NCBI GenBank assembly: GCA_030674185.1
Contig: CM060315.1
Coordinates: 88,854,915-88,918,914, forward strand
Length of the DNA stretch: 64,000 nt
Reading direction: 5' to 3'
Source: Monoplex corrugatus
Taxonomy: Eukaryota; Mollusca; Gastropoda; Littorinimorpha; Ranellidae
Below the pieces are notes generated by a model that saw only the letters and a list, made by a program, of their open reading frames with translations, did not search any database and was not told the DNA's origin. Both the position numbers and the translations under genes were made by a program. Below are positions 10,309 to 64,000 of this stretch, one piece after another. Each line of letters starts with the position of its first letter. Positions within the stretch are counted from its first letter, which is position 1.

Positions 10309-10898
10309 TTGCTGCCGACCAATCCAAGGCGACTAGAGGCACCAACAGGCATGAGTTCAGTTGTGTCTGTGTTCAGCTTCAAATAACTGATGTTTATCCA
10401 ATACAGTACATCATCCACAGTTCCACTCTTTGACAGTACAGTGTCATCAGCGTATTAATGAAAATTACACTGATGAGAGGCTGTAACACCTGACAAAGGC
10501 TGAGAATATAGTGTAAACAACACTGGTCCAAGTACAGACCCTTGTGGTACACCATAAACCAGGGGACGTGGAGCAGACATAACACCATCAACAGTGACTG
10601 ACTGATACCGGTCTTCTAACTATGAGGCAAACCAGTGAAGAGCTGGACCACGCACACCAAAGGTCAATTCCAGTCTCTTGAACAGTACGGAGTGGTCAAG
10701 CGCGTCGAATGCCGCACTGAGGTCCGACAACGTCAATAGAGACACCAGTTTTTTTTTATCCGCATTGACTAGCCGACCGTTGAGGACACTCAGAACTGTG
10801 GTCTCCGCGCTATGACCACCACGGTATGCCGACTGGCGCACTTCAAGCAAGTTGTTGGCACATTAGTGATTTTGTAGTTGCTTTAGTACAACTGTCTC

Positions 10899-26754: not shown

Positions 26755-27438
26755 CGATTGCAAAGGACAGGAATCATCACCCACCCAGCCCCTGAAATCG
26801 GAATAGACTTGAGGCACCCTGGACTGATTGTGAAGAGCGGCACACATCTGGCACCAGTTGGCGAGTTGATCTGGCAACCGGATGTAGTGCTTTTTCCACA
26901 AGAAGAAGGAGTTGTAGAGGTCTCTATCAGACCCCACACGCAACACGAACATTGCTAGCTCCTCCACAGATGTGAAGTTATCCACATCGATGTAAGATCC
27001 AGGGATAGCAACTTGGGAATAATCTGCACCCCCGCTAACGATTGGGATCTGATTCCTGCCTATTGCACGCCAGTATTTCTCCGTCACATAGTCCCGACAG
27101 TAGCCGTTCTCAAAGGACAGGACAAACTTGTAGCGGCTGAGGAGATCGCTGCACGCTTTGGTGCCCTGACTGCAGGTGTACTTCCCGCAAGCCCCGTACG
27201 TATCAATAGGGAGATGCTTCTGGAGTGCTGTGGCCAGTTTGTAGCGCTGACTATAGTTGATGCAGTTACTAGCTGCCCAGAACACCATCAGGTCGTGGAG
27301 ACTGAAAGGGTCCTCTGCGAGGTTGTCGTGCTGTGCCCTGATTGGGATATTCTGACGGATGGCCTGATCGTCCCAGAAGCTGGTTTGAATGGCAAAGGGT
27401 GTTGCTGGTTCATGAGGGGTGTGGTGCTGGTCACCTGA
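26755..27438 (-). CDS. Fucosyltransferase exon 3: GDP-fucose-binding catalytic domain
   Basis: Starts in phase 0 at 27438 after CTTCAG and runs 228 codons to the donor TCG|GTGAGC. It contains VFWAASNC, LPIDTYGACG, then the GT10 signature SFENGYCRDYVTEKYWRAI followed by IPIVSGGADYSQVAIPGSYI and DVDNFTSVEELA. This is the donor-binding motif of the family (F-E-N-S/G-x-C-x-D-Y-x-T-E-K). The C-terminal part has WCQMCAALHNQ and VYSDFRGW...DSCPLQS, close to the natural C-terminus of the family. Reading on past the donor leads into simple repeat, so a short last exon is expected downstream. Confidence 0.9.
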
Positions 27439-30900: not shown

Positions 30901-33508
30901 ATCAGTGTGTCAATACCTTAGATGGAACTACGCTAACTGAGCCAGAAGACATTCTAAAAAGACGGCATAAATACAGCAAAACCTTATTCAATGGTCAAGA
31001 ACAAACTAAACCTCAAAATGATAGAGTTCAATTTTGACACAGCACTGAGTTAGTGCCAGAACCCCTCATCAGTGAAGCTGAAGCAGACATCAAAGAGCTT
31101 AAATGCAGAAAGTCACGTGACCTCGTTAACATTTCAGAACTGTTGAAACATTCAGGAGAAGGTGGGCTGAAAGTCATGCATTACCTATGCTGTAAAATAT
31201 GGAAGACTGGTCAGTGGACAACAGACTGTAAGTCACAAGAATTTGTCACGCTCCATAAGAGCGAAAATTTAAAAGATTGCAATAATTAGAGGACAATAGC
31301 CCTTATTTGTCATGCAAATAAGATCCTGCTGATCATAATCTTAAACAGGATGAAAAAAGTAGAGTTTGAACTACCAGACTATAAGGCAGGTTACAGAACA
31401 AACAGAGGAACAACAGAGATGTTATTTGTGCTTCAAAACATCATTTAGAAAGTGAAAAGTACGAATGAAGAACTTTTTATTATCTTCACAGACTATAGCA
31501 AAGCCTTTGACAGCATAATCTACCAGCATCTTTTTGACATAATGCATAAAATGGGCTTTTTAAAACACATCATCTCACTAATTTCCTCACTTTATGAAGA
31601 CCAAAAGAGAACTATCAGATGGGACAATCAAAAATGTGAATTATTCAGTATCTCGAAAGGATTCAGGCAAGGATGCATCCTATCACCTCACCTTTTCAAC
31701 ATATGTATATACAGAGCAAGTAATGAGAGAGTCTGATATTGAAGACATGGGTCTTAAGATAGGTGGTAGAACTATAACAATTCTGTGCTACGCTGATGAT
31801 ACAGCACTACCAGCCGACAACATCACTAGCATGAAGACAAAGTAGATGAAACAGGAAGAAGAGCCGATCTCAAGCTTAATGCCAAAAAGACAAAAGTACT
31901 GTATGTTGCCAGAATCAGTTGCCAAACAGAGCAAGAAATAAAGACAGATACAACGCCTTTAGAAAATGTCAAATATTTTAAATATCTAAGCTCAGTCAAA
32001 ACAAACCATGGATCATGTACCAAAGATATAAAAACAAGAATAGGCATGGCTAAAAGCAGAATGATCCAACTACACAACATCTGGAAAGAAAGATCGCAGC
32101 ATTCCTCTCCATCTAAAAGTGAAAATACTGAAATGCCTCGTATGGCCGTCATGTTATATGACTGCAAATCCTGGACACAAAGTATTGATGATGACAAAAG
32201 AAATGAAGCAGCTGAGATGTGTTTTTTAGGCGGCTGCTCTGGGTCAGCTGGACAGATAGATGAACAAATGAAAGCATACTAAACGAACTGGATACAGCAA
32301 GAAAACTTCTGTCATTAATAAATGAAAGAAAATTACGATATGAAGGCCATGCGCTACAAAACCAAGAGACTGACTTTATGAAGACTGTCCTCAAGGCAAA
32401 AAGGAAAAGAGACAGACCACCGGCTTCTCTCACTGGCAACATCACCGAATCCAGTGGCACGAGAATCCATGAAGTCAGCAGGGCCAGCAAAGACCGGAAC
32501 AAACTGAGGGGGATAACCCTGTCAGTGTCATTGACTGCAGTGGCCAACATTGCACCTGGTGATGCCAACAGGTGAGACTCCATTAATACTTATGACAGCA
32601 CCTGTACTGAAACCATCAAAATAAGAGTAGAAATGGCAAAACAGAAAATCATCCAACTCAGTCACATTTAGAAAGACAGAAGTACACAAACAGCCCTTAA
32701 AATCAAAATTTTAAAATGTCTGAGCACGCCAGCAATGTTACATGGCTGTGAAGCCTGGAATGCAGAAATGCAAATCAAAATAATATTGAAGCAGCAGAGA
32801 TGTAATTCTACAGACAGCTTCTAAGAGTCAAATGGACCGATAAGAGCTAGAGAACAACTGAAAGCATTCTGAACCAACTCAGATCATATCCACTGGTGGC
32901 AGAAATCAACAAAAGAAAAATGAGACACATCAGCCATGGAACCCACAACACCAACACAACCCTAATGACAACAGTTTTACAAGGAAAAGTTGAAGCCAAA
33001 AGAAATCCAGGCAGATCAACCACCTGTATAAACAACACCACCAACATCAGTGGTTTCAAGGTCTACGAAGTAGTACAGAAAGGTCAAGACTGGAGTAAAT
33101 GGAGAAGAGTTAGGTGATAGGTTTTTGCACAAGTTCAAGGCGTCTTGACAAATGGCAGTTTGGGTGGAGCACATACAGAATTGTCCAAGTGTAAAGAATC
33201 CCTCCTGAATGAAGGCAATTGTAGGCTCCGGCAGACAGAAATCTGTTCTTACCTTGTCGGAGGAAGGCAACAGGTGGGTAAAGTGACCATAGGGGGAGAA
33301 GATGTCGCGTCTGAGCGGTACCATGAGGTCCAGTTGAACACATTGTTGAACTCCTCTTCCTTGATGTCAATATAATATGGAGGCTCAGACCCGTGGACAA
33401 TCCACACCTGTTGATATACATCTCACAGTCATAACAATTTTATGATAGAAGTTAGTGTCTTAAGACCAGATGCTCTCTCTCTCTCCCCCCTCTCTCTATA
33501 TATATACA

Positions 33509-33539
<31 letters not shown>

Positions 33540-36500
33540 GCACACACACACACACACGCCACACACACACACATATGTATGTATGCACATATAGATACAC
33601 AGAGAGAGAGAAAGAGAGATTTACTACAGCCAGTCTGTCCCTAAGGGAGTAAACACTGGAAAAAAATCACCCTACTGCCTTGTAGGTTGTCGTGAGAACG
33701 ACAAAGGCTATCGGACAGACCGTACACAAACCGATAGAAGGCAACGGGAAATCACCATCGTACTTTCACAAGTCGAATCATGGCCAGACAAAACAAGGAA
33801 AAAGAGGATAACGACGTAAATAGAGGCTCCTATGGAGTACCTACGTCGGTAGGGACCCTCATGCTGCACAGGTGACACAGGACCGTCAGCAAGCCACTGC
33901 GTTTAATCTAAAAAAACAACAACCAAAATCGCAACAGGGAATGTGAGGACATTGTTGCAAAAGGGAAAATTAAAGAATGTCAAAATGGAAATGGAAAGGC
34001 TTAACATTAGTTTTTTAGGATTAGGGGAAGTGAGATGGAAGGGGGCAGGCATGATAACATCAGGAGAGCATACAATAACATATTCTGGTGGAAACACACA
34101 CGAAAGAGGACTTGGCATCATAACTGACAGGGACAAACCAAAAGCAGTTAAGGGATATTGGGATATGTCCGAGAGTTTTGCTGGTTAAATTGGATGGCAA
34201 GCCATTTGATATCAACATCATCCAGGTGTATGCACCAACATCCGCAAGTACTCAAGACGAAATTGACAAGTACTATGAAGTATTAGAGATGTCCAAGGCT
34301 CAATGTAAATCACAAGAAGTTACAACAATAATGGGAGATTTTAATGCTAAAGTGGGACAGGATAGGGTGAGGATATAGTTGGACCTCAAGGCCTTGGTAC
34401 ACAAAATGAAAGGGAGGGAAACTTGTAGAATGGGCACAGATGAATGAGTTCATAGTAGGAAACACCTGGTTTGAGCAGCCTAATAGAGGAAAGTGGACAT
34501 GGATGAGTCCAGGAGATAATACCAAAATTCAAATTGACTACATCCTGATCAAGAAAAGAGTAGACAGAAAAGCAAAAAACGAACTGGATGACAAAAGAAA
34601 TTATAGGCTTGATGGAAGAACGGAGGAAGGCAAAGGGAAAGGAGGAAAGATACAGGAAGATAAACAAAGAAATCAGGAATAGGTGCAATGAAGCTAAGGA
34701 AGCTTGGCTGAAAACAAAGTGCAAAGAAATAGAATACCGACACAAAACAGATCCTAGATCCTAGGGGTATGTACAGAAGAACTGAAGAAATTGTCCACAG
34801 GAAAAAGACATCCACATCAATTGGTTGCTTAAAATCGAAAGATAGTACGCTTATCATGGAAAAAGACAAAATATTAGACAGATGGGGAGAATACATTAAA
34901 GATCTTTTTGAAGATGACAGAAACGAAGAACACATTATAAGAAAGAACGTTGATGACCACCCATAATGAAAGATGAAGTTAGAGCAGCAATGAAAAAGAT
35001 GAAACCAGGAAAAGCCCCAGGACCAGACAAAATTACTACAGAGATGATTGAAGCCCTGGAGGAATTTGGTATTGAAAAATTAAGTCCTCCTTAATGAAAT
35101 TTATGACACTGGAAAAATCCCCAAAGAAATGTCAAAATGAATTTTCATTGCTGTTCCAAAGAAAACAGGGGCTATAGAATGCGAACTCTATCACACAATC
35201 AGCTTGATGAGTCATGTAACAAATATCATGTTGAGAATAATCATGATGATTGCAGAAAATGAAAGGGACCTACAAAACCTTGTGAATATAATAGAAATAG
35301 AAAGCAAAAGTAAAGGGATGGAGCTAAATAGCAAGAAGACTGAAGTCATGGTAATCAGTAAAAAACATGAAAGCCCCTCAAGCAAAATAACAGCAAACGG
35401 CACGACCTTGAGACAGGTTGATAAGTTTAAATATCTGGGAACGATCATCTCACCAGACAGCAGATGCACATCAGAAATAGCCAGCAGAATCGACCGAGCC
35501 AAAACAACATCCAAGAAGATGATGAGCATTCTTACCAACAAATGCCTATCAATGAACTCAGGAAGACAGTTCTAGAATGTTATATATGTAACAGAGTGCC
35601 TTGCTCTGTTACGATCTTTCCCCATTTACCTACAATGCTCAAAGGCAACACCGTGTAGTGTGCTTGCCTAGATCAAAAACGCCTTGCGTTCTCTTGGTCA
35701 AATTGTACTGTTATCTCACAGCCTCTGCCTACCCATAACTATGCATTGAACATTCCAAAGGTCTAACCAATACATGACGCATATAGATAACACACTGCTA
35801 AACAATGAGCAGATCTACAATGTGTACATGTATTCTGAAGCGGGGGCCTACGACAAGATTTTGTCGTCATCTCCAGTCAGTATTACGTTGTCGTCCTACA
35901 GAACGTAGAGGAGACAGTCTTTAATCTATGCCGCCTCCAGCCAATTGTAGTACAACCACCGTCCTAATAGCCATTGTGTGACCCGCGGAAACCCACGTAC
36001 AATGACCGCAGGTTATGTTGCGGTTGTATGGAGCCCCGGGGCGGACAGTCTTTGTTTCATGCCGCCCTTCGGTGTTTGTGGCGTAATAGCCAATAGCCAC
36101 CAACAAAACCACCAGACGAGTATGCCGGTTGTGTGTACCGAGGCACTGCACTTATGTAAGACCTCCATTAATTAGACCTCCATTAATTTCAAACAGAGTT
36201 GACTTTTCGCCACGCCCCAAGTGTTGATTGATTGGGTAGGTGAGAACAACCAATCAGACCTTATTATCTGAAAGGTTTGAAAGTATGACCATGCTCTGTT
36301 CTCAGAGTACAAAATTAACAAGGCGCATCATAGCGTGTGCTTTTCCACCGCCACTCTCAGTCTCACCAGAGGTGCCCTTTCCTGCCACCACTCTTGGTCT
36401 CACAGCAGGTGTTAAAACTTCACGGCGTTACTGTAGTAAGTTCTGGATTCTTATCACTTTATTATTCATTGTCATTTGCAGTAAGCTTAGACTTTAGTGC

Positions 36501-39500
36501 CTCTTATTTCTTTAGATTCTAGCTCGAGTCTATTGAGTACCGCGCTAGATTTGCAGAATTCGCACAGTGAGAAAGTATGTTTTGATCTAAACGATGTGCT
36601 ATCTCACAAGATCTGTAGCACTTAGCATGGCGGCCACCATTGTAAAGATGGGACTGAGGTTTAAATGTAATAACCACGATAGATTTAGCCCCTATTTTCA
36701 TGTGGCTATTGTAGGACTATTGACAACCATATTCTGCCAAAAGCCAAGATACAAGGCATTGTTGTGCAGAGGAAGAGTATTTTATACTTGACAAGGTTGT
36801 ATTTTTACATACTGACATGATGACTGATGAAACACGTGCTCAGCTAATTGATCTGTTTAGTGTATCCCTTAGCTGATCAGCACCACTGATAATCATGTAT
36901 AGAGTGTTGTTTTGATGACATGGTTTAATAGTAATATGCTATACTATTTTGTTATCATTGTCTCTAGCACTTGATCTAGAATTATAGTATATACTTAATC
37001 ACATAGAGATAATGGGTAATAGACTACTCAAGTGTGTTGTTCTCTCAACACTGCTGACTGCTGTTTGATTAGGTGCTGTTTGTGATGACATAGTTCTCAT
37101 TGTCAAATAGGCCTACTATGCAGACCTGCCAACCAGTACGATTTTGGCGTATTATTTTACGATCATAATTAAATAATACTAAATTACGATCGAGTAAAAA
37201 ATGATACGATGCAAAAAAACAAAAACAAAAAAAACAACGATTATAGGTCTAGTAGTGACTTTGAGCCGAGAGCGCCACTGAGAAGACAATCACGATCGGT
37301 AAACAAGTGGACTATGGGCGCAGCCATGTTTGTTATTATAAATGAGAATCTCGTCAAACGAGAGTCTTGTACTGGGTCAAACGAAAGTCTCGTACCGACT
37401 GTGAGACTTCCGTTTTTGCAAAAAGAAAATGGCGACACGAGGTAGACCGCGTGGTAGTGGCAAAGGAAAACGTGGTGGTGAAGCTGCTTTGGGCACCGGC
37501 AGTGAAAGTGTACAGAAAAAGGCAAAAAGAGAACAAAAGTTCATCCAGTCGTACTCACAAGAGTACCCATGCATCACTGCATCGAAAGTGGGAAGCACAT
37601 ATGCAAGGTGCAGTGCTTGTGAGTTCGATTTTCTAGTTTCGCATGGCGGGATCGACGATGTAAAAAAGCACGTGACTTCATTGAGGCACATTGCAAAGGC
37701 ATCAGCCTTAAGAAACACCTCTTCTCTTGTTGATTATATTCAAAGAACTGAAGATACTGATCTCCAGCCCATTCGTGCAGAGGCATATTTCACGGCGTTT
37801 TTGGTGGAACACAACGTGCCACTTTCAGCCTCTGACCATGCTGGACAGTTGTTTAAGAAGATGTTTCCTGACAGCAACATAGCAGATACCTACAGTTCTG
37901 CAAGAACAAAAACCACATCCATTGTGAAGGAATGTGCTGAAGATAGTAAGGCTGAACTTGTGCAGTGCATGAAGGGACCCTTTGTGTTAGGTACTGATGG
38001 TAGTCAGGAGGGGGAAGACAAGTTCTTTCCCATTGTTGTGAGAGCTGTGGATCCCCATGGAACTATCAAAACTGAACTGCTCAGTGTCCCCTCATGTGAG
38101 ACGTCAGCCACTGGAGAACACATCTTTCAGTTGTTGGACTCTGAGCTAAGGGCTTACCAGATAGACTGGAGGAACTGCCTGGCATTTGTAACCGACAATG
38201 CCAATGTCATGATTGGGGTCAACAAAGGTGTCATCTCGTTCATCAGAGACAAGCATCCAGAGACCTTCTTGGCCAGATGTGTATGCCATCTCCTTAGTCT
38301 GACTGTGAAGAAAGCCATGAAGGAGTCTAGCAAGTTTGACCTTGATGACACAATGCGTCAACTGGCCTGGTATTTCTCCAAGAGCACTGGCAGACAGCAA
38401 CGCCTGAAGCAGATCCAGAAGGAACTAGGCTTGCCAGAGCACAAGGTTGTTGAGCATGTTCCCACCCGATGGCTCTCTCTTGGGGCTGCCTTGGACAGAG
38501 CAGTTGAGCAGTGGAACGCTTTGGACAAATTCTTCAAGGAAGAATGCAGTGTGAAGACATCACATGCTTCAAGTACATCTAGTTCTGACCCACCTATGAG
38601 GCAAAAACTCGGGGATTTCTTCCGGCGCAAGACCACCAAATTGTATGTCTTGTTCTATGCAACAGTCTTGGAGGTGTTCAACCAAGTCAACAAACTTGAA
38701 CAGACCGACAGCGCCAGAATCCATCTGATCAAGAGAGACATGGAACGACTGTACAGACGCCTGCTTGTCAGTTATCTGAAGCCAGCTGCTCTGAACAATG
38801 GGGCCCTGATGGATGTGGACTTCAAATCCTCATACAACATGAAGCGTGATGAAGACATCTTCATTGGTAGCACCACCCGAGAACACCTGGACTGTGTGGA
38901 AAGTAAGCAGCAGCAGATCTTCATGGAGAATGTGAAGACATTCTACAAGGAGGCATGCAAGTACATGAAAGAGAAGCTGAACCCGGCCGAGGAAACTCTA
39001 TGGAAACATGCAGAGCTTGCGGATGTGAACCTGCAGAAGTCAGTTCAAGCATCTTCTTTGAAATACTTCTTGAAGAAGTTCCCATGCACTCTGCCACCTA
39101 ACACAACCCCTGATGAGCTGGAGGGAGAGTTTCTGGAGTACCAGGCAGCAGAACTTCCACCTGTGGTGTTGAACCAGCCATCAGCAGAACTGCAGTGGAA
39201 GGAGATTGGTGCCATGAAAGATCACAATGGTGCCACTAGACTGAAACATCTGTCCCAGTTCATGCTGTCAATTCTCCTCATCCCTGTGTCCAACTGTGGG
39301 TGTGAGAGAATCTTCAGTCAAGTGCGAAGAAACAAGACTGACTTTCGGGGATCCATAGGGGCAAAGACATTGGATGCTCTCATGGTTCTGAAGTCCAAGA
39401 AAGGGGGCCCATGCTACAAAGCAGTGTTCTCTGATGAGCTCTTGAAAAAGTGCAAGTCAGCTACCAAAAGGCAGCACACTGAGCACAGTGCAACAAGCTC

Positions 39501-42500
39501 TACCGACACAACTCAGTAACTTTCAAAGTGTGCCTTGTTGGCTTCAAATTGTCATTTTGACAATGCAGTTTGTAGCGAAGCAGACATTAGAATTTATGTT
39601 TTTTGAGTGAATCATATGTGATTGTGCCTCAGTGGAGACAGACACTGGAACTCATAGTGATCAATATATGTGGAAAACAGACACTTGAACTCAGAATTTG
39701 TGATGCATGTGAAAAAAGACATTAGAAGTGATACATGTGAAAATATGTGTTCCTGGAGCCACAAATGACGAGACGAATCTACTTTATAATGAGGTACGGT
39801 ATATAATTCTTTGTATACTTGGAATACTACTGTTTTTGAAAAAATACTATAAAAAATTTATAAAGGTACTATTGCAGGCTTAGAGGGGTTGGCAGGTCTG
39901 ACTATGTCATCACCACTGAATATTAACTGTCTGAAAGCTACCAGGATGCAATGCATTATTGTGCACTATTTTATACTTGATAATGTTGTATGTGTGTACA
40001 TGATGGTAGTTGATGAAACATGTGCTCAGCGAATTCATCCAATTGTTGTATCCCTTGTCTGCTCAGCACCACCACTAATCATTATTGAATGTTGCTTGGA
40101 TGACATACCGGGTAGCTTAATTAGTAATATGCTATGCTATTTTGTCATCACTATCTCTAGCACTAGATATAGAATTACACATAACTACATGGATCCGGGA
40201 GCAAATATTTAATGGATGACTCAAGTGTGTTGACTGCTATTCGATAAGGTAGACCCAATGTTTGTGACGACAGTTCACATAGTCAAATACTATGTCTGTC
40301 ATCACTACTGAATATTAACTGTCCAATAGCTGCCCACTCAGATGTTATGTTACAACTAACTCAGCCCATGGCGGCCGAACAGCTTAATATGACTGTGCAT
40401 TATTTTGCCAGTACATTATTGAAAGTCTACTCTATGCTAAGGCTATCGAACAAGCAGTATGGTAGTTTACCCTCAACTTATCAAAGGGTTACTCAATGTT
40501 TTGTCACCAATTATTTGTTCCATGTTTACAAGTGCTAGTGCTTTAGAGTGTAAATATCGACACCACATATTTTGGTATAATGTAGTAGTTCTTTACACAT
40601 CATTTTGTTATCAATTATTTGTTGCATGTTTACAAATGCTAGTGCTTTTGTTTGTAAATGTAGACATCTTCTGTTAGAATGTAATAGTTCACTCTTGTAC
40701 ATTGACATTGTTATTTCACAAAATGTGTACTTTGTCATTGTATTTATGAAACCTATTTTGTGTCTTACAGGCACTGTCTTCTTTGACTGTCTTCTTTCAG
40801 TCTTCTTCTTCTTAGACGTCTTCTTTGTTGTCTTTCTCAATAATAAAGAGTCAAGTAGCAAAACGAGGACTTGTCTTTTGATTGAGAGACTTCCCTTTCT
40901 GCTCTGGATTCAAAGGACCACCACAGCAACCATCACCAAACCCCTTAACCCACTCGCACCATCTCACCTGGCGCTGCGATCAATCATCATCAATCACTTA
41001 CTCCCCTCACCACCTTACCACTCGCCCCATCTCATATAGAACCGATAATGTTATACGGTTGTGAGGCGTGGACAGTCAACAAGCAAAGCCAGAACAAGAT
41101 TTGAGGCAGCCAAGATGTAGTTTCTAAGAAGAACGTTGAGAGTTCCATGGACAGCAAAGAAAACAAACAAAACAGTCTTGATGGAGGTAGACACAAGAAG
41201 ATCATTGATAAGGAAGATTAGGAAAAGACAAGCAACATTTATAGGCCACTTTATGAGGAAAGGGAATTAGAGCACCTGGTCACAACAGAAAAGCTGGAGG
41301 GAAAGAGAGCACCAGGTAGATCCAGGTAAAAATATTGGACGGACATGCAGAGGGGCTGAGGACAGAAAGGGTGGAAGGTGTACTTGCAGCGACAAGGGAT
41401 AGATTCATATGGAGGGCCATGATCGCCAACGCCGTGCGGCAGGACACTTGATGATGATGATGAGTCTGTCCCTTGTAACCCTGTCTTACAGTCTCAGTAC
41501 AGATAATGTACAGGATCCAAATGACCTGAAGACTATCGCTGTACAAAATGACTCACAATGAACAATACCAATGGCAGTAGAAATGTATAAATAACTAAAA
41601 AAAAAAAAACTTTAAAAACGTTAAATTGTCTCATAACCCTGAAGTTGTAGGGCAGTGAGGTGGAAGAGATCTCAAATTTTCTCAGGGCCAGCATTATGAA
41701 GGTGATACCCATTTCTTCTCCTTTGCGGCTTTACCTTTCCCTAAGTTTCAAGAAAGTTTGGTACCCGTTCACTGCTGGGTAGACTGAAAGCCACACACGC
41801 ACATAGTTCCATGCGTGTGACTCCACCTGTGCAGTCTCAGGAAAACAGACTGGAAGGTGAGTGCTCTACCTCTACGCGAATCAAGCACACAAGAATGTTA
41901 TTAAAGTTTCCACCAATATTTGAAGGTAATCACAAACATATTCTGCAACATGTGTAAGAATGTCATCGTCAGTAAGCATGTAACTTGGGAGTAGTTAATC
42001 ATCAGATTCATAACAATGGAAAGTTCAGCTATTCAAAATGCCTTGATACAAATACAACACTCACACTTTCCAATGTTTTGCCCATGTTTGGACTTTTTCT
42101 GTGGAATTATCTGCCCTTTGATCTGAACATTTTTGCCTAGCCTTTCCTGTTCGAAGATCCAACGTAAATCCCATTTTCCCCATGAATCCTTCTGTCCAAA
42201 TCAACTTTTGTATACTGACCCTGCCCCGTCCTGTTTTAGTGCGTTGTTGTAGCATGCTGTACATGAAAGTTATTGAGAGTGTGTGCATGATGTTAATGGG
42301 TTTAAACAGTGAATGTGTGTTACATGTATATTTCATTTAGTTTTGTATTTTAGAATTGTATGTGCACACATCACTGTTAGGAACACTATAAATGTACAGT
42401 AATTATTATCATTATTACATTAGTTTTTCTTAAATCATCTTTATCAGCTTCAGTCTGGTGTCCAAGTTACCCAAGAAAAGTTCGTCCCCAATCCTACCGC

Positions 42501-43110
42501 ACACTGTACATTCTCTGTCTTTTCTGGGAATGTCTGGGTATGTTATTATGCAAAATCCACTAAATGTGTTACAATCCACTGTTATACACACACACACGCA
42601 CACACACACACGCATACACACACAAGCACACACACACACAAACAGGCAGGCATGCACATAATTGTTTAAAAAATCTTCAAAAGGGTGACAAGTTACCTGG
42701 TGGGGCGGGTGGGAAGGTGGAAGATCATTGGGAGTGTAAATATTCCGCACGTTTATCAGCACGGCATCGGCATCGTTGATCTCCTGTTTGTCCACAGTCA
42801 CACGGCATTTCTTCATGGCACAGTTCTGGAACGTCTGATCGCCCGCCCCCCAGGTCTTGGAACCGAAGAACTCAGTCCACAAAAGAATGGTCTTCTGCCC
42901 ATCTGTTCCCTTCAAGCCCTCAGAAACCCCTGCTGTACTTGTGTGAAGACGGGGGAAAGTGGTGATGAAGGGAGTCGGTCTTTTCGGAGGTCCAGCAGGG
43001 AATCTGGCCTTGACTTTGGGAGGGTGGGTGTCGTAGATGATTAAGGAGATGAGGACAACAATGATGATGATGACCACAAGCTGACGTTTGAATTTTCGCA
43101 GTGTCCTCAT
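26755..43110 (-). CDS. Alpha-1,3-fucosyltransferase-like gene, GT10 (split, incomplete)
   Basis: Minus-strand gene of three recognisable coding exons: 43110-42697, 33407-33253 and 27438-26755. They encode about 418 residues when taken together, close to the 350-450 usual for GT10 enzymes. These are type II Golgi membrane proteins that transfer L-fucose from GDP-fucose to N-acetylglucosamine-containing glycans. All junctions are GT-AG and phase 0: donors CAG|GTAACT, AAG|GTAAGA and TCG|GTGAGC, acceptors CAACAG and CTTCAG. Two anomalies exist. Exon 2 has an apparent one-base loss, and no terminal exon with a stop is found, so it probably lies at or beyond the left edge of the window. Introns of about 9.3 and 5.8 kb are filled with mobile elements. 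It may be a functional gene with an assembly error or a recent pseudogene; the enzyme's exact linkage specificity cannot be told. Confidence 0.85.
27460..27608. mobile_element. TTAA-flanked MITE 1 (piggyBac-like termini)
   Basis: Flanked by TTAA on both sides (27456-27459 and 27609-27612). The left end CCCTTTAACTCCTGCACCC and the right end, reverse complemented, CATTTGACTCCCTCATCC form imperfect inverted repeats extending into CTATCTGCCAGC / CTATCCACCAGC. About 150 bp, non-coding, just 5' of fucosyltransferase exon 3 (inside intron 2). Confidence 0.65.
27826..28022. repeat. (AC)n microsatellite
   Basis: A long, interrupted (CA)n tract with CATACA and CACTCACA variants. Open frames here are low-complexity artefacts. 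Confidence 0.95.
28215..28620 (-). pseudogene. CR1/L2-like LINE C-terminal fragment
   Basis: Minus-strand text KHDHLTPPFRELHCLPMKSR, then CHCKIASLVCRYFDGSLTPYI and QVSNITHPAILKAK, followed with a frameshift by LPADLRDLS-like residues. This is the H-I-T-P...L-H-W-L-P C-terminal block of CR1/L2 RTs. It is a short, dead fragment within intron 2. Confidence 0.7.
28847..29030. mobile_element. TTAA-flanked MITE 2, nested palindrome
   Basis: The left end CCCTTTGCCCCCTCACCC with CTATCCACCAGC mirrors the right end GTTGGTGGATAGGGTGTGAG with AATCAAAGGG. The left flank is TTAA (28843-28846); the right flank TTAC is one base off. A second, smaller inverted pair (CCTTTGATTCCTCACCC at 28920 and GGTGAGGGAATCAAGAG at 28972) lies inside, so one copy seems inserted in or duplicated within another. 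Confidence 0.6.
29174..29273. repeat. 50-bp tandem duplication
   Basis: Two copies of GCTTGTTTGCTGTCCATCTG followed by AAATGTTCCAATCATT, differing at two to three bases. Confidence 0.9.
29560..32580 (+). mobile_element. RTE-type LINE copy 3, nearly complete, decayed
   Basis: Readable in order, with stops and frameshifts: IIRIGTWNVQTMLETGKLS (endonuclease start, about 29690), LNEVRWR, CIIIGDLNAKVGEGDD (about 30100-30140), VDYIMIDRRWK, linker PEEIWTDMKNVYTDAAEEKLG (30574), TELVPEPLISEAE, CRKSRDLVNISELLK, IIFTDYSKAFDSI (motif A, about 31480), SKGFRQGCILSPHLFNICIY (motif B), LCYADDTAL (motif C, about 31785), NAKKTKVLYVA, YDCKSWTQ (32160) and a C-terminal end near 32575. It is a more diverged RTE lineage than copies 1, 2 and 4, and lies inside fucosyltransferase intron 2, antisense to the gene. 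Confidence 0.85.
32600..33118 (+). pseudogene. Second RTE C-terminal fragment
   Basis: Repeats the C-terminal layout already present just upstream: VEMAKQKIIQLSHI, MLHGCEAWNAEMQ, LLRVKWTD, RKMRHISHG and GKVEAKRNPGRSTTCI, ending at a stop at about 33117. It is a separate, 5'-truncated copy of a related RTE element, ending 135 bp from fucosyltransferase exon 2. Confidence 0.7.
33253..33407 (-). CDS. Fucosyltransferase exon 2, with a frameshift
   Basis: Begins in phase 0 after CAACAG and reads VWIVHGSEPPYYIDIKEEEF then NNVFNWTSWYRSDA. The family pattern then needs a frame change to continue DIFSPYGHF to the donor AAG|GTAAGA. Length is 155 nt, one short of 52 codons, while both neighbours are phase 0, so a single base is missing near 33300. 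The NWT...YR-x-D and DIFSPYG words are the conserved central block of GT10 enzymes. This could be a base-calling loss in the assembly or a real inactivating mutation. Confidence 0.85.
33470..33620. repeat. Compound (CT)/(TA)/(AC)/(AG) microsatellite
   Basis: Simple-sequence runs of four kinds follow each other, about 65 bp upstream of exon 2 on the gene's strand. No coding role. Confidence 0.9.
33650..35586 (+). mobile_element. RTE-type LINE copy 4, 5' part
   Basis: A probable 5' UTR (33650-33910) leads to TKIATGNVRTLLQKGKLKNV, SFLGLGEVRWKGAG, HTITYSGG, NIIQVYAPTSAS, TTIMGDFNAKVGQDRV (34320-34370) and IDYILIKKRV, then the linker LDDKRNYRLDGRTEEG, EDDRNEEHI, EVRAAMKKMKPGKAPGPD (34975-35025) and KKTGAIECEL. 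At about 35250 the text jumps from LRIIMM straight to AENERDLQNLVNIIEIE, so the palm with motifs A, B and C is deleted. It continues KFKYLGTIISPDSRC and LTNKCLSMN up to 35586, where a 5.4-kb insertion splits it; the rest is at 41034-41460. Confidence 0.87.
35588..35612. other. Terminal hairpin of the inserted element
   Basis: A perfect 9-bp stem: GTAACAGAG (35588-35596) pairs with CTCTGTTAC (35604-35612) around a 7-base loop, one base inside the insertion boundary. Confidence 0.85.
37121..39900 (+). mobile_element. hAT DNA transposon, apparently intact
   Basis: 2,780 bp bounded by perfect 14-bp inverted repeats: CAGACCTGCCAACC at 37121-37134 and its complement at 39887-39900. The terminal CAG is usual for hAT elements. 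Both sides are directly flanked by ACTATG; the related sequence at 40289-40294 has a single ACTATG and looks like the empty site. hAT duplications are normally 8 bp, so two bases may have changed. One uninterrupted transposase frame fills most of the element. It is antisense to the fucosyltransferase gene, inside its intron 1. Confidence 0.92.
37429..39519 (+). CDS. hAT-family transposase, 696 aa, intact
   Basis: A single frame with no stop or frameshift, unlike every other element in the window. Domains in order: a basic N-terminus (RGRPRGSGKGKRGG, residues 4-17); a BED-like zinc finger C61-C64...H81-H87 for DNA binding; an RNase-H-like catalytic core with D190 (LGTDGS) and D256 (VTDNANVM), the hAT-typical C-x-C-H word at 284-287 and W348 (TRWLSL); an insertion domain; and the C-terminal hATC dimerisation region with E626 (NCGCERIFSQVRRNKTDFRG). 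D190, D256 and E626 fit the DDE catalytic triad. It should cut out and re-insert elements bearing the 14-bp ends. The start at 37429 is the first ATG of the frame and lies about 300 bp inside the left end. A domesticated ZNF862-like host gene is the alternative, but the flanking inverted repeats argue for a transposon. Confidence 0.93.
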   Translation: MATRGRPRGSGKGKRGGEAALGTGSESVQKKAKREQKFIQSYSQEYPCITASKVGSTYARCSACEFDFLVSHGGIDDVKKHVTSLRHIAKASALRNTSSLVDYIQRTEDTDLQPIRAEAYFTAFLVEHNVPLSASDHAGQLFKKMFPDSNIADTYSSARTKTTSIVKECAEDSKAELVQCMKGPFVLGTDGSQEGEDKFFPIVVRAVDPHGTIKTELLSVPSCETSATGEHIFQLLDSELRAYQIDWRNCLAFVTDNANVMIGVNKGVISFIRDKHPETFLARCVCHLLSLTVKKAMKESSKFDLDDTMRQLAWYFSKSTGRQQRLKQIQKELGLPEHKVVEHVPTRWLSLGAALDRAVEQWNALDKFFKEECSVKTSHASSTSSSDPPMRQKLGDFFRRKTTKLYVLFYATVLEVFNQVNKLEQTDSARIHLIKRDMERLYRRLLVSYLKPAALNNGALMDVDFKSSYNMKRDEDIFIGSTTREHLDCVESKQQQIFMENVKTFYKEACKYMKEKLNPAEETLWKHAELADVNLQKSVQASSLKYFLKKFPCTLPPNTTPDELEGEFLEYQAAELPPVVLNQPSAELQWKEIGAMKDHNGATRLKHLSQFMLSILLIPVSNCGCERIFSQVRRNKTDFRGSIGAKTLDALMVLKSKKGGPCYKAVFSDELLKKCKSATKRQHTEHSATSSTDTTQ
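40501..40700. repeat. 104-bp duplication
   Basis: TTTTGTCACCAATTATTTGT (40501) and TTTTGTTATCAATTATTTGT (40605) begin two copies that both continue through CATGTTTACAA-TGCTAGTGC to AATGTA-TAGTTC, with about 20 per cent divergence. Confidence 0.8.
41034..41460 (+). mobile_element. RTE-type LINE copy 4, 3' part
   Basis: Resumes exactly where 35586 left off: IEPIMLYGCEAWTVNKQSQNKI, then the FLRRTLRVPWTAKKTNKTVL block, EHLVTTEKLEGKRAPGRSR and a DRFIWRAMIANAVRQDT end, with frameshifts. It closes with GCGGCAGGACACTTGATGATG, the (GAT)n-type 3' end of the family. Confidence 0.87.
41461..42585. other. Unannotated intron 1 sequence
   Basis: AT-rich, with an A12 run near 41600. No supported gene, terminal repeat or RNA was seen. 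Confidence 0.4.
42586..42645. repeat. (AC)n microsatellite near exon 1
   Basis: A short interrupted (CA)n tract about 50 bp beyond the exon 1 donor. Confidence 0.9.
42697..43110 (-). CDS. Fucosyltransferase exon 1: signal anchor and N-terminal stem
   Basis: The start is the ATG at 43110 (MRTLRKFKRQL); the upstream in-frame GTG is not a eukaryotic start. A basic cytosolic tail is followed by a strongly hydrophobic segment, residues about 11-26 (LVVIIIIVVLISLIIY), which is the single signal anchor. A Pro-rich stem follows, then ILLWTEFFG and the N-terminal catalytic-domain text CRVTVDKQEINDADAVLI and HPPHQ. The exon is exactly 138 codons and ends at a good donor (CCAG|GTAACT). A TTTACTCAG acceptor just upstream (exon starting at 43140) suggests a further 5' UTR exon. 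Confidence 0.87.
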
Positions 43111-44114: not shown

Positions 44115-44420
44115 CACTGGCTCCCCACTGAAAAATAGATTGACTATAAACTCGCTGTGCAGTGCTTTAAATCACTGACTACTCTGGCTCCTTCCTATGT
44201 TGCTGTTCTTCTTTTCCTCTATGCTCTATCAGGACAGTTGGGATCCTCATGATACTCATCTTCTCCACGTCCCTTGATTTCATACCAAAACTGCTGGCCA
44301 ATGTTTATTCTCCTTTCAGGCCCCCATGGAACACAGTTTGTCACTCTGCAGTTTTGATATTCTGTCATTATTCAAATCCTTACTGCAAACTATTCTCTTC
44401 ACGTCTTGACACACGAAAAC
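44115..44420 (+). pseudogene. CR1/L2 or Rex1-like LINE C-terminal fragment
   Basis: Plus-strand text across frames: SLHWLPTE, DYKLAVQCFKSLTTLAPSYV, LYALSGQLGSS, then RSFSFQAPMEHSL and SLFKSLLQTILFTS. The order LHWLP, YKL-x-x-CFKSLT-x-LAPSY, R-S-F and FK-x-x-L-x-T-x-LF is that of the CR1-group C-terminus. Confidence 0.65.
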
Positions 44421-44539
44421 AATGGCCCTCAATCCCCAGCGGCTCTGGAACCGCTGCTCAAGGTAGAGGGCAGACAGGGAATGGAGTAGACGGTGCTAAG
44501 AATCTCTGGGTTCGGACAGGCTACTGCCATCGAAAACGG

Positions 44540-46120
44540 ACTGCTAAGCCTTTAATTGTTGCTGTTAGGAACGTGCGAACTCTTCTAGATAGAAAACAGG
44601 CCAACCAAACAGAAAGAAGAATTGTCTTGGTAACACAAGAGCTCCAAAGATACAAAGTCGACATTGCTGCCCTCAGTGGCACAAAATGTGTAGACAAAGG
44701 TCAGTTAAGCGAGGTTGGATCAGGATACACTATATACTGGTCAGGTTGCAAAGCTGAAAGGAAGGCAGGTGTTGGCTTCCTAGTAAGAACCCCTCTCGTC
44801 TCTCAGCTTGAGTCACAGCCCCAGGGCATCAATGACAGAATCATGACTATGAGGCTCCCATTATCAGACAATACATATGCTACCATGACAAACCAAGACG
44901 AAAACACAGAAGTCTTCTACCAACAACTTGAGGAAGTTGTACACAGCGTACCTACAGGTGATAAGCTGATCATCCTGGGAGATTTCAACGCAAGAATCAG
45001 CTCAAATCATACACCATGGGCTGGTATTATTGGTCAGCATGGTATCGGTCATGAGAACTCAAATGGCAAACTTCTGCTTTCACTTTGCTCCCAGCATAAT
45101 CTTTCAATCACAAATGCATTCTTCCAACTGATTGATGCTTACAAAACTACCTGGATGCATCCAAGATCAAAGCACTGGCATTAAACAGATCTTATCATCC
45201 GCAAACAACATGACCTGCGTGACTTGCATATCACGAGAGCAATAAGATGTGCCCAATGCTCAACACATAACCTTCTCCTCAGATCAAAGGTGAACCTCCA
45301 GGTGCGGAGAAAAGGAGGTACAAAGGCAAGAAACCTCCCAAAAACTGGATGTTGGGAAAATCAATAACTCTGGCATAACAGTTGTCTTACAGAATGAACT
45401 CTCAAAGCATCCAGAACAATTTGCCTTCACCAAAGGAGAGACAGAAGAAAACTGGGTCAAACTAAGAAATGAAGTTGACACCGCTAATGAGACAATAGAC
45501 GTCCTCAAAAGACATCACCAGGACTGGTTTGATGACAACGGTTCTGAAATTCAAAGTCTTCTTGCTGAGAAGTATGCTGCACACAAGAAGACAAGTTCCA
45601 CCATCTCGGAGAAAAAGTTCAGAAGCGGTTGCGCTCCATGAAGGATGAATGGTGAGCGCTCCATGAAGGATGAATGGTGGAAAAAGAAGGCAGAGGAGAT
45701 CCAGGGTTATGCTGACTCAAAAATGCCAAGCGCTTCTACTCCAACTTGCGGGAGATGTATGGGCCACCACAGAGAAGTGCAGCCCCAATCCAGAACCTGC
45801 AAGGTGAGCTCCTCACTGATAATGAGGCAATAAATAAGAGATGGCCAGAACACTTCGAGCAGCTCCTTAACAGGCATTCATCAATTGACCCCAGCGTCAC
45901 TGAAGAATTCCCTGCAAGACCCCTACGCATGGAACTTCACGACCCACCCATGGAAAATGAGGTGACAGAAGCAATTGCAGAGTTGCAATGTGGTAAATCA
46001 GCAGGCTCCGATGGTATTCCGCCTGAAGTTTTTAATTAAAGCAGGTGGTCAGCCGCTGATACAGAAGTACATGCTGGGAAGATGACTGTTTACCCCAAGA
46101 TCTGAAAGATGCCAGAATAG
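44540..46120 (+). mobile_element. LINE (APE-type), 5' half, cut off by satellite
   Basis: An endonuclease frame (about 44549-45183) has IVAVRNVRTLLDRKQ, IAALSGTK, KLIILGDFNARISSNH and GNGKLLLSLC-like text. It continues after frameshifts with QDWFDDN, IQSLLAEKYAAHKK (about 45520-45590), RLRSMKDEWWKKKAEEIQGY, REMYGPPQRSAAPI, LLTDNEAINKRWPEHFEQLL and LQCGKSAGSDGIPPEVF (46000). It is lost at DLKDARI (about 46110), where the 26-bp satellite begins. A 25-bp internal duplication (GCGCTCCATGAAGGATGAAT, 45631 and 45656) is a local lesion. The RT half is not here. Confidence 0.82.
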
Positions 46121-49100
46121 ATTATTGGATGAAACAGACCTAACAGACTTCTGGATAAAACAGACCTAACAGACTTCTGGATAAAACAGACACAACAGAC
46201 TTCTGGATAAAACAGACACAACAGACTTCTGGATAAAACAGACACAACAGACTACTGGATAAAACAGACACAACAGACTTCTGGATAAAACAGACCTAAC
46301 AGACTTCTGGATAAAACAGACACAACAGACTTCTGGATAAAACAGACCTAACAGACTTCTGGATAAAACAGACACAACAGACTTCTGGATAAAACAGACA
46401 CAACAGACTACTGGATAAAACAGACACAACAGACTTCTGGATAAAACAGACCTAACAGACTTCTGGATAAAACAGACACAACAGACTTCTGGATAAAACA
46501 GACACAACAGACTACTGGATAAAACAGACACAACAGACTACTGGATAAAACAGACACAACAGACTACTGGATAAAACAGACACAACAGACTTCTGGATAA
46601 AACAGACACAACAGACTTCTGGATAAAACAGACACAACAGACTATTGGATAAAACAGACACAACAGACTATTGGATAAAACAGACATAACAGACTATTGG
46701 ATAAAACAGACACAACAGACTATTGGATAAAACAGACACAACAGACTTCTGGATAAAACAGACATAACAGACTACTGGATAAAACAGACACAACAGACTA
46801 CTGGATAAAACAGACACAACAGACTACTGGATAAAACAGACACAACAGACTTCTGGATAAAACAGACATAACAGACTTCTGGATAAAACAGACACAACAG
46901 ACTACTGGATAAAACAGACATAACAGACTACTGGATAAAACAGACATAACAGACTACTGGATAAAACAGACATAACAGACTACTGGATAAAACAGACACA
47001 ACAGACTACTGGATAAAACAGACATAACAGACTACTGGATATAAACAGACACAACAGACTTCTGGATAAAACAGACATAACAGACTACTGGATAAAACAG
47101 ACACAACAGACTTCTGGATAAAACAGACATAACAGACTACTGGATAAAACAGACATAACAGACTACTGGATAAAACAGACACAACAGACTTCTGGATAAA
47201 ACAGACACAACAGACTTCTGGATAAAACAGACATAACAGACTACTGGATAAAACAGACATAACAGACTACTGGATAAAACAGACATAACAGACACAACAG
47301 ACTACTGGATAAAACAGACATAACAGACACAACAGACTACTGGATAAAACAGACTACTGGATAAAACAGACAACAGACTACTGGATAAAACAGACATAAC
47401 AGACACAACAGACTACTGGATAAAACAGACTACTGGATAAAACAGACATAACAGACACAACAGACTACTGGATAAAACAGACTACTGGATAAAACAGACA
47501 TAACAGACACAACAGACTACTGGATAAAACAGACTACTGGATAAAACAGACATAACAGACACAACAGACTACTGGATAAAACAGACTACTGGATAAAACA
47601 GACATAACAGACACAACAGACTACTGGATAAAACAGACTACTGGATAAAACAGACATAACAGACACAACAGACTACTGGATAAAACAGACTACTGGATAA
47701 AACAGACATAACAGACACAACAGACTACTGGATAAAACAGACACAACAGACTACTGGATAAAACAGACAACAGACTACTGGATAAAACAGACACAACAGA
47801 CTGCAGGATAAAACAGACTATTGGATAAAACAGACACAACAGACTACTGGGTAAAACAGACACAACAGACTACTGAGATAAAACAGACAACAGACACAAC
47901 AGACTACTGGGTAAAACAGACACAACAGACTACTGAGATAAAACAGACAACAGACACAACAGACTACTGGGTAAAACAGACACAACAGACTACTGAGATA
48001 AAACAGACAACAGACACAACAGACTACTGGGTAAAACAGACAACAGACACAACAGACTACTGGGTAAAACAGACAACAGACACAACAGACTACTGGGTAA
48101 AACAGACAACAGACACAACAGACTACTGGGATAAAACAGACACAACAGACTACTGGAATAAAACAGACACAACAGACTACTGAGATAAAACAGACACAAC
48201 AGACTACTGGGATAAAACAGACACAACAGACTACTGGATAAAACAGACAAACAGACACAACAGACTACTGGAATAAAACAGACACAACAGACTACTGGGA
48301 TAAAACAGACACAACAGACTACTGGGATAAAACAGACACAACAGACTACTGGGATAAAACAGACACAACAGACTACTGGATAAAACAGACACAACAGACT
48401 ACTGGGATAAAACAGACACAACAGACTACTGGGATAAAACAGACACAACAGACTACTGGATAAAACAGACACAACAGACTACTGGGATAAAACAGACACA
48501 ACAGACTACTGGGTAAAACAGACAACAGACACAACAGACTACTGGATAAAACAGACATAAACTCTTGGATAAAACAGACACAACAGACCATTGGATAAAA
48601 CAGACATAACAGACTACTGAGATAAAACAGACACAACAGACTACTGAGATAAAACAGACACAACAAACTACTGAGATAAAACAGACACAACAGACTACTG
48701 AGATAAAACAGACACAACAGACTACTGAGATAAAATAGACACAACAGACTACTGGGATAAAACAGACACAACAGACTACTGGGATAAAACAGACACAACA
48801 GACTACTGGGTAAAACAGACAACAGACACAACAGACTACTGAGATAAAACAGACACAACAGACTACTGGGATAAAACAGACACAACAGACTACTGGGATA
48901 AAACAGACACAACAGACTACTGGATAAAACAGACACAACAGACTACTGGGATAAAACAGACACAACAGACTACTGGATAAAACAGACACAACAGACTACT
49001 GGATAAAACAGACACAACAGACTACTGGATAAAACAGACACAACAGACTACTGGATAAAACAGACACAACAGACTACTGGATAAAACAGACACAACAGAC

Positions 49101-50270
49101 TACTGGATAAAACAGACACAACAAACTACTGAGATAAAACAGACACAACAGACTACTGAGATAAAACAGACACAACAGACTACTGGATAAAACAGACTAC
49201 TGGATAAAACAGACACAACAGACTACTGGATAAAACAGACACAACAAACTACTGAGATAAAACAGACACAACAGACTACTGAGATAAAACAGACACAACA
49301 GACTACTGGATAAAACAGACACAACAGACTGCTGGATAAAACAGACACAACAGACTACTGGGTAAAACAGACAACAGACACAACAGACTACTGGGATAAA
49401 ACAGACACAACAGACTACTGGGATAAAACAGACACAACAGACTACTGGAATAAAACAGACACAACAGACTACTGGGATAAAACAGACACAACAGACTACT
49501 GGGATAAAACAGACACAACAGACTACTGGGATAAAACAGACACAACAGACTACTGGAATAAAACAGACACAGCAGACTACTGGGATAAAACAGACACAAC
49601 AGACTACTGGAATAAAACAGACACAACAGACTACTGGAATAAAACAGACACAACAGACTACTGGAATAAAACAGACACAACAGACTACTGGAATAAAACA
49701 GACACAACAGACTACTGGAATAAAACAGACACAACAGACTACTGGGATAAAACAGACACAACAGACTACTGGAATAAAACAGACTACTGGAATAAAACAG
49801 ACACAACAGACTACTGGGATAAAACAGACAACAGACTACTGAATAAAACAGACACAACAGACTACTGGATAAAACAGACACTACAGACTACTGGATAAAA
49901 CAGACACAACAGACTACTGGATAAAACAGACAACAGACTACTGGGATAAAACAGACACAACAGACTACTGGGATAAAACAGACACAACAGACTACTGGAA
50001 TAAAACAGACACAGCAGACTACTGGGATAAAACAGACAACAGACTACTGGGATAAAACAGACAACAGACTACTGAGATAAAACAGACAACAGACTATTGG
50101 ATAAAACAGACACTACAGACTACTGGATAAAACAGACAACAGACTACTGGATAAAACAGACAACAGACTACTGGATAAAACAGACAACAGACTACGGGAT
50201 AAAACAGACACAACAGACTACGGGATAAAACAGACATAACAAACTCTTGGATAAAACAGATAAAAAGTCC
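46120..50270. repeat. 26-bp satellite with higher-order repeats
   Basis: About 4.15 kb built from CTACTGGATAAAACAGACAC plus AACAGA, with variants TTCTGG, TATTGG, CTGGGATAAAA, CTGAGATAAAA and CTGGAATAAAA. Blocks have their own larger periods: 52 bp at about 47330-47720 and exactly 60 bp at about 47880-48060. Variants cluster by block (TTCTGG early, GGGATA, GGAATA and GAGATA late). Open frames on both strands (Cys-Val-Leu-rich on minus) come from the repeat and have no gene support. Confidence 0.96.
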
Positions 50271-55620: not shown

Positions 55621-55621
55621 A

Positions 55622-56583
55622 ATGCAGGCTACTTCACCATGCACTGTTAGTATCAATGCAGGCTACTTCACCATGCACTGTTAGTATCAATGCAGGCTAC
55701 TTCACCATGCACTGTTAGTATCAATGCAGGCTACTTCACCATGCACTGTTAGTATCAATGCAGGCTACTTCACCATGCACTGTTAGTATCAATGCAGGCT
55801 ACTTCACCATGCACTGTTAGTATCAATGCAGGCTACTTCACCATGCACTGTTAGTATCAATGCAGGCTACTTCACCATGCACTGTTAGTATCAATGCAGG
55901 CTACTTCACCATGCACTGTTAGTATCAATGCAGGCTACTTCACCATGCACTGTTAGTATCAATGCAGGCTACTTCACCATGCACTGTTAGTATCAATGCA
56001 GGCTACTTCACCATGCACTGTTAGTATCAATGCAGGCTACTTCACCATGCACTGTTAGTATCAATGCAGGCTACTTCACCATGCACTGTTAGTATCAATG
56101 CAGGCTACTTCACCATGCACTGTTAGTATCAATGCAGGCTACTTCACCATGCACTGTTAGTATCAATGCAGGCTACTTCACCATGCACTGTTAGTATCAA
56201 TGCAGGCTACTTCACCATGCACTGTTAGTATCAATGCAGGCTACTTCACCATGCACTGTTAGTATCAATGCAGGCTACTTCACCATGCACTGTTAGTATC
56301 AATGCAGGCTACTTCACCATGCACTGTTAGTATCAATGCAGGCTACTTCACCATGCACTGTTAGTATCAATGCAGGCTACTTCACCATGCACTGTTAGTA
56401 TCAATGCAGGCTACTTCACCATGCACTGTTAGTATCAATACAGGCTACTTCACCATGCACTGTTAGTATCAATGCAGGCTACTTCACCATGCACTGTTAG
56501 TATCAATGCAGGCTACTTCACCATGCACTGTTAGTATCAATGCAGGCTACTTCACCATGCACTGTTAGTATCAATGCAGGCTG
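55622..56583. repeat. 34-bp minisatellite, highly uniform
   Basis: About 28 copies of TGCAGGCTACTTCACCATGC followed by ACTGTTAGTATCAA. The copies are identical apart from one G-to-A change at about 56439. The array directly extends the 3' edge of the SINE-like repeat. Confidence 0.97.
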
Positions 56584-59700: not shown

Positions 59701-60040
59701 TATGGTGGCTCTAAGGTTAGAGAGTGTTTACTTTGCTATGGTGGCTCTATGGTTACAGAGTGTTAGCGTTTACTTTGCTATGGTGGCTCTATGGTTAGAG
59801 AGAGTTTACTTTGCTATGGTGGCTCTAAGGTTAGAGAGTTTACTTTGCTATGGTGGCTCTAAGGTTAGAGAGAGTTTACTTTGCTATGGTGGCTCTATGG
59901 TTAGAAAGAGTTTGCTTTGCTATGGTGGCTCTATGGTTAGAGAGTTTACTTTGCTATGGTGGCTCTAAGGTTAGAGAGAGTTTACTTTGCTATGGTGGCT
60001 CTATGGTTAGAGAGAGTTTACTTTGCTATGGTGGCTCTAT
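56740..60040. repeat. 36-bp minisatellite, about 91 copies
   Basis: The unit GGTTAGAGAGTGTTTACTTT + GCTATGGTGGCTCTAT varies at a few positions (AGAGAG/ACAGAG/AGCGAG, GGTGG/GATGG, TATGG/TAAGG). Because 36 is divisible by three, long frames stay open; the largest (57120-59153) spells a 12-residue repeat M-V-R-E-C-L-L-C-Y-G-G-S. There is no signal peptide, intron boundary or conserved domain, and 33-, 34- and 35-bp units break the frames, so I treat it as non-coding. Confidence 0.95.
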
Positions 60041-63034: not shown

Positions 63035-64000
63035 ATGTTCCTCTTTCTGTGGAAAAGGTTGAATGATAGGTTGAATAACAGGATGAATAATGGACCTACT
63101 TATTGGTGCCGTCCTTACTACATAAACAAGTCAGTGTGGATTCCGAGCGGAACGCGGCACTGCCAACATGATATTTTCGGCATGCCAGCTCCAGGAAAAA
63201 TGCCAAGAGCGGCACGGCGACCTCTTCATGACTTTTGTTGATCTGACCAAGGCCTTCGACACGGTCAGTACAGATAAAGAAGAATGAAGAAGTTGGGATG
63301 TCCCAGCCAATTCATCACTATCGTCCGTCATTTCCACGATGGCATGATGGCGAAAGTACTGGATGATGGGGAAGAACTGCAATGCAACCCTTCCCACTGA
63401 CAAACGCGTCAAACAAGGTTGCGTTCTGGCTCCTACACTCTTCTGCATGGTATTTTCAGCCATGCTGACAGACGCCTTAGGTGATTGCCAGGACGGGATA
63501 CACGTCAGATATAGGACTGACGGTGGTTTGTTTAACTCCAAGCACTTGAAAGCTGTTACGAAGGTGAAGAATACCATCATCAGAGACTTTTTGTTTGCTG
63601 ATGACTGTGCCCCCGACGCCTGTACAGAGCAAAAGATGCAACATGGAATGGACCGCTCCGTAAAAGCCCGTGACAACTTTGGTCTCACCATTAACACCAA
63701 AAAGACCAGGGTTATGTACCAGCCTGCGCCTGGCAATCCCTATCAAGAAGCACACATCACAGTGAAAGGGCAGAGCCTACAAGCAACAGATCATTTTGCC
63801 TATCTGGGCAGTATACTCTCACGTGCGGTTAACACAGACGAGGAAATAAACAACAGGAAAGTCAAGGCCACTGTTGCCTTTGAAAGACTGAAGGAACGTC
63901 TGGGAATGGAGAGGACTCAGTCTTACCACCAAGCTGAAGATCTACCGTGCTGTGGTACTCACCACTCTCCTCTATGCCAATGAAAACCTGGATAATCTAT
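63035..64000 (+). mobile_element. LINE RT half (palm to thumb), runs off the window
   Basis: Text across frames: LNDRLNN, QCGFRAERGTANMIFSACQL (about 63139), GDLFMTFVDLTKAFDTV (motif A, about 63220), then the open stretch 63363-63983 with KRVKQGCVLAPTLFCMVFSA (motif B), IRDFLFADDCAPDA (motif C), NFGLTINTKKTRVMYQPAPG and FAYLGSILSRAVNTDEEINN. Frameshifts near 63180 and 63280 make it inactive. From knowledge of the family it matches the endonuclease half at 44540-46120, so both may come from one copy. Confidence 0.87.

Follow-up and report, generated by a model that had tools for sequence, protein, structure and literature searches.

The 64,000-nucleotide window analyzed here, from the gastropod Monoplex corrugatus (assembly GCA_030674185.1, contig CM060315.1, forward-strand positions 88,854,915 to 88,918,914), contains a hAT DNA transposon of 2,780 bp whose coordinates are exact. 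The element, its terminal inverted repeats (TIRs), the flanking target site duplication (TSD) and the transposase open reading frame (ORF) are listed below in window coordinates, each with its basis; residue roles are assigned by comparison with Hermes, the active hAT transposon of the house fly.

37115-37120: left TSD copy, ACTATG (flank comparison; single copy in five empty paralogous sites)
37121-39900, plus strand: whole hAT element, 2,780 bp (TIRs, TSD, ORF and copy comparison)
37121-37134, plus strand: left TIR, 14 bp (arm complementarity)
37353-37395, plus strand: two 20-bp subterminal direct repeats, 90% identical (repeat family D4)
37429-39519, plus strand: transposase ORF, 696 codons and stop (ORF call, Pfam)
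37609-37689, plus strand: putative DNA-binding finger, C61-x2-C64-x16-H81-x5-H87 (sequence reading and alignment)
37996-37998, plus strand: codon of D190 (TDGS), putative first catalytic aspartate (invariant in ten sequences; role from Hermes)
38194-38196, plus strand: codon of D256 (TDNA), putative second catalytic aspartate (invariant in ten sequences; role from Hermes)
38278-38289, plus strand: CxxH motif, C284-H287 (invariant in ten sequences)
39235-39396, plus strand: hAT C-terminal dimerisation region, best stretch, residues 603-656 (PF05699)
39304-39306, plus strand: codon of E626 (CERIFS), putative catalytic glutamate (aligned to Hermes SERTFS)
39887-39900, minus strand: right TIR, 14 bp (arm complementarity)
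39901-39906: right TSD copy, ACTATG (flank comparison; empty paralogous sites)

An earlier sequence-only reading of the window had claimed perfect 14-bp inverted repeats and an uninterrupted 696-codon transposase at this position. Indeed, the two TIR arms are 100% complementary, and the frame runs from 37429 to 39519 without a stop. A window scan for the TIR 14-mer allowing up to three mismatches returned 10 matches, against 4.25 expected by chance; the only perfect matches are the element's own two ends, and the other eight carry three mismatches each. hAT elements are described in an excerpt of PMC3942097 as 2.5-5 kb long with 10-25-bp TIRs and 8-bp duplications, and the length and TIRs found here fall within those ranges. 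A TATAAA at 37337 and the start context AAAATGG lie upstream of the transposase frame, and the 20-bp subterminal direct repeats are possible candidates for transposase or promoter sites. All 97 hits of a tblastn search of the window with related transposases fall inside the element. No transposase-less derivative was found within the window, where DNA similarity to the element is otherwise limited to five matches of 17-32 bp, four of which fall in the element's A-rich stretch.

The transposase residues named in the sequence-only reading hold up to different degrees. The hATC dimerisation domain is detected by Pfam (PF05699; E = 2.9e-7; 30.6 bits against a cut-off of 21.4), and the D, D and E residues are placed by alignment, with D190, D256 and the CxxH motif (C284, H287) invariant across ten aligned relatives. 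The zinc finger is a sequence pattern, with no Pfam finger hit over residues 61-87, and an NCBIfam scan gave only a sub-threshold hit to IS1249. A predicted structural model (mean predicted local distance difference test score, 71) finds Hermes as its best match in both Foldseek and VIA-align, pointing to an RNase-H-like, Hermes-type fold with D, D and E. Hermes (2bw3, 4d1q, 6dww, 8edg, and 8sjd) thus has the hATC domain and the predicted overall fold in common with this transposase, at 15-17% identity in structural alignments.

Searches of 5.8 billion proteins, with about 8,000 candidates scored in each, place the transposase among animal relatives. The single-sequence search returned at least 12 relatives at E <= 1e-5, the best of which, P0001, is 72% identical over 74% of the query; next among those scored are P0002 (56%) and several Nucella lapillus proteins (47-49%). 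Five different N. lapillus proteins are among the 12 closest relatives. The alignment-based search returned at least 85 relatives at E <= 1e-10, with hosts including N. lapillus, Batillaria attramentaria, a scallop, a chiton, a ribbon worm, fish, and arthropods; no relatives were found in viral contigs or in prokaryote genome contigs. P0001, P0002, and the N. lapillus proteins belong to the same transposase family, with finger and catalytic motifs alike where covered, but by identity, compared as proteins only, they represent separate families.

The flanks of the element agree at 6 bp only (ACTATG at 37115-37120 and 39901-39906; lengths of 2-14 bp compared), and an 8-bp duplication at this copy was rejected on that basis. 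The element is nested in an older, high-copy dispersed repeat covering about 35581-37120 and 39901-41042:

35581-37120: older dispersed repeat, left part (about 95% identical to L073 and L074)
39901-41042: older dispersed repeat, right part (matches L073, L074 and L077)

Five paralogous empty sites (L073-L077) aligned to the joined flanks show no gap at the insertion point. Because each carries a single ACTATG, they directly show a precise insertion with a 6-base duplication. A search with 401 bases of flank gave 762 candidates at first look, of which 40 were scored; leaving aside the window's own match, the remaining 39 show 97-98% identity. The dispersed repeat itself has internal tandem units of about 400 bp, and its matches occur in pairs about 5 kb apart on the same strand at C23, C20, C15, C7233, and C1358. 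Each such pair may mark both ends of one longer element.

To count near-identical copies, as the sequence-only reading had proposed, we searched the window's own assembly (3.018 Gb, 7,621 contigs); each search scores the best candidates only, so all counts are lower bounds and older copies may escape. The transposase search gave 947 candidates, of which the 64 scored, including the window's copy, all show about 100% protein identity over residues 1-695 or 1-696. A search with 300 bases of the left end gave 210 candidates, and all 40 scored are 99-100% identical, 29 of them absent from the first 64. At least 93 loci therefore show direct near-identity to the element. A further search with P0001 gave 811 candidates; the 82 scored are 71-73% identical to it and free of stops, and 18 of them are additional loci whose identity to P0001 is like that of the window copy. 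The total is at least 111 loci, of which 23 are known from the left end only and 18 through P0001 only.

These numbers bear on whether the frame could be a host gene domesticated from a hAT transposase, as its intactness and the conserved protein relatives in other animals might suggest. Such a gene is expected as a conserved single-copy orthologue; instead, the genome holds at least 93 near-identical loci, and the window copy retains intact TIRs and TSD and lies in a repeat that has empty paralogues. Similarly, five of the 12 closest relatives being different proteins of one species, N. lapillus, speaks against it. On the grounds of ends, duplications, and copy number we reject domestication for the window copy and consider it close to inconceivable.

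We fetched the 63 other copies with about 300 bases on each side. The left TIR is perfect in 62 of all 64 copies and the right TIR in 60. An exact 6-bp TSD flanks 48 of the 63 fetched copies, and three more have longer matches inside simple repeats; 8-bp flank matches occur twice (L021 and L038), both inside TG repeats. Base preference at the target is weak: the position three bases outside the duplicated site tends to be T or A, and its two central bases tend to be T followed by A. The frame is full-length in 61 of the 64 copies (696 codons in 60, 697 in one) and interrupted by a stop in the remaining three, and 18 copies, the window's included, encode the same protein. Intact transposase and ends thus recur in several near-identical copies, as expected of an active autonomous transposon: when ends, duplication, and frame are all tested strictly, 45 of 64 qualify, a lower bound since the test demanded the exact start context.

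Copies might also have arisen by segmental duplication or assembly error rather than by transposition. One pair invites this explanation: L051 and L065, 8.7 kb apart on C30 (about 23.52-23.54 Mb), have an identical 250-bp left flank and different right flanks, so at least one of them comes from a rearrangement. In an all-versus-all comparison of flanks, however, they are the sole pair of different copies more than 90% identical over more than 80 bases. Further, 48 of the 49 clean TSD sites (window included) carry distinct duplications, and at each of the five empty sites the flanks join precisely. Duplication accounts for L051/L065; for the family we reject it as very improbable.

The 64 copies differ from their consensus at a mean of 0.134% of bases (range, 0-0.291%) and from one another at 0.255%, and for 145 of the 173 variable sites the variant is confined to a single copy; the old, diverged copies that would have spoken against recent activity are not what these searches returned. 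Divergence is 0.129% (52/40,200) in the non-coding parts, on which the protein search exerted no direct selection, and 0.095% (127/133,824) in the coding part. Three substitutions and a single insertion of 5 bases separate the window copy from the consensus, and one copy shows no substitution at all. The tree of copies is a star, with 0 of 60 inner branches reaching the support threshold in a bootstrap that had not settled. Neutral rates are a few per billion per year, which would make the copies less than about 1 million years old, a rough rather than a firm age. In simulations of neutral decay with 0.1 indels per substitution, the share of runs in which such a frame stays open is 9% at 1% divergence and 1% at 2% divergence; with zero indels, the corresponding values are 43% and 17%. 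Given this survival, an intact frame alone is only moderate evidence of youth, and the genomic copies are the stronger evidence.

Recent activity is demonstrated by the structure of the copies: their ends are defined, the insertion is precise, 6-bp duplications mark many different sites, the frames are mostly intact, and the sequences are nearly identical and related as a star. The sequence-only reading of the element as a candidate for such activity is supported by its near-identical copies and distinct TSDs. We conclude that this is probably an autonomous hAT transposon with 6-bp TSDs that multiplied very recently in the snail genome and that, from its sequence, retains the ability to transpose. 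It may well be moving today.

Several observations weigh against this conclusion. Because the 64 copies were the top scorers among 947 candidates, their divergence is that of the youngest layer. Coding variants (43 synonymous, 67 non-synonymous, and 3 stops, against 27%, 69%, and 4% expected) are near neutral, in a sample biased toward the best-scoring copies from which we make no claim of selection on the frame. Twelve of the 63 fetched copies lack a perfect TSD: L025 and L067 run into Ns; L044, L046, L061, and L062 miss part of an end; L032 has a one-base difference; L048 lies in AT repeats; and L016, L026, L051, and L065 are complete at both ends and outside simple repeats, with no duplication. 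No allele without the insertion was found among the 40 scored matches to the window flank, nor for the flank of L027 on the small contig C1434, so that neither of the two flanks searched revealed a polymorphic insertion. The other 39 scored matches to the L027 flank are 93-96% identical over part of it only and are therefore repeats. In L046 and L061, the first 14 and 52 bases of the left end are missing at the TSD, of which five of six bases are left, as if these ends had been cut and then badly repaired.

The same recent burst might already be over, with its young and mostly intact copies either fixed or shut down, by small RNAs for instance. All the evidence here concerns past movement, and the stops in three of 64 frames, the lost ends of some copies, and the lack of a polymorphic site at the two flanks would all fit. 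Against this stand the copy with no substitution relative to the consensus and the single protein encoded by 18 of 64 copies, which indicate that any end of activity came very recently. We regard a finished burst as rather unlikely.

If the element is competent, its movement would probably follow the scheme of Hermes. The transposase would bind the element ends via the putative finger domain and assemble through hATC, and a D-D-E active site, with chemistry and residue roles modeled on Hermes, would excise the element. Insertion elsewhere with 6-bp staggered cuts, followed by gap repair, would then produce the 6-bp duplication. New copies may also land close to old ones. Among the 111 loci, a selected sample for such a statistic, eight neighboring pairs lie less than 200 kb apart (on C6, C9, C11, C14, C17, C21, C28, and C30), against about 0.8 expected under uniform placement. 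One of these is the duplication L051/L065, with its common flank; another, on C9, is 7.6 kb apart. L022 and L023, 80 kb apart, are grouped in the tree with modest support. This suggests local hopping near the donor site.

Hermes makes 8-bp duplications. The canonical hAT groups (Ac, Buster, and Tip) are likewise defined by 8-bp TSDs, whereas this element makes 6-bp ones. In the part of PMC12730594 consulted, which cites Kapitonov and Jurka 2007, hAT families with 5-bp and 6-bp duplications are named hAT5 and hAT6, and both sit within the lineage that holds Blackjack and other animal hATs. With a hAT transposase and a 6-bp TSD, the element would be a hAT6, an assignment by duplication length alone. 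The family itself is new and very young; elements of this kind are already known. TcMar and hAT are the richest transposase superfamilies in molluscs, according to an excerpt of PMC10294476; among the titles and abstract openings listed for mollusc or gastropod hAT elements (15 of 95 papers in one search), none mentions this family or a similar burst.

We propose, tentatively and with more doubt than conviction, that the element invaded this lineage recently, perhaps by horizontal transfer, expanded to more than 100 mostly intact, full-length copies partly by local hopping, and is a currently mobile mollusc hAT with 6-bp TSDs. The star tree and near-zero divergence favor this, as does the distance to the nearest protein, P0001, which is only 72% identical among those scored, with none of its 82 scored genomic matches closer to it than 71-73%. 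Against invasion by transfer, no second host was found in searches that scored the best candidates only, and older copies could exist.

The rest of the window contains a host gene, retrotransposon fragments, and tandem arrays. A fucosyltransferase gene lies on the opposite strand, with exons at 42694-43035, about 33271-33413, and 26755-27420 from Babylonia and Nucella protein matches; its best match is Babylonia areolata (73%), which points to a caenogastropod host. Antisense to the gene, the element occupies the intron that separates the exon at 42694-43035 from the middle one. The middle exon (33271-33413, minus strand) shows a frame change at about 33306 relative to both proteins, reflecting either a pseudogene or an assembly base error. 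The sequence-only reading had held everything else mobile in the window to be broken. In a Pfam scan of 8 of the 16 window ORFs of at least 150 aa, this stands: the mobile-element hits besides the transposase are three fragments of 206-311 aa. Retrotransposon gene fragments lie at 2311-2949, 44249-45184, and 63363-63983 (two reverse transcriptase, one endonuclease). Large tandem arrays create long spurious ORFs:

10898-11643: tandem array, unit 62 bp, 99% uniform
46119-50260: tandem array, unit 26/52 bp
55621-56582: tandem array, unit 34 bp, 99% uniform
56741-60040: tandem array, unit 36 bp
60091-62612: tandem array, unit 20 bp

At 99% uniformity, the 62-bp and 34-bp arrays are also young.

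A young family with dozens of intact, near-identical copies makes it possible to test in a mollusc what causes a 6-bp rather than an 8-bp stagger. It also allows tests of landing near the source and of the snail genome's reaction to a DNA transposon that is possibly still spreading. If competent, the element could serve as a gene-transfer tool for gastropods.
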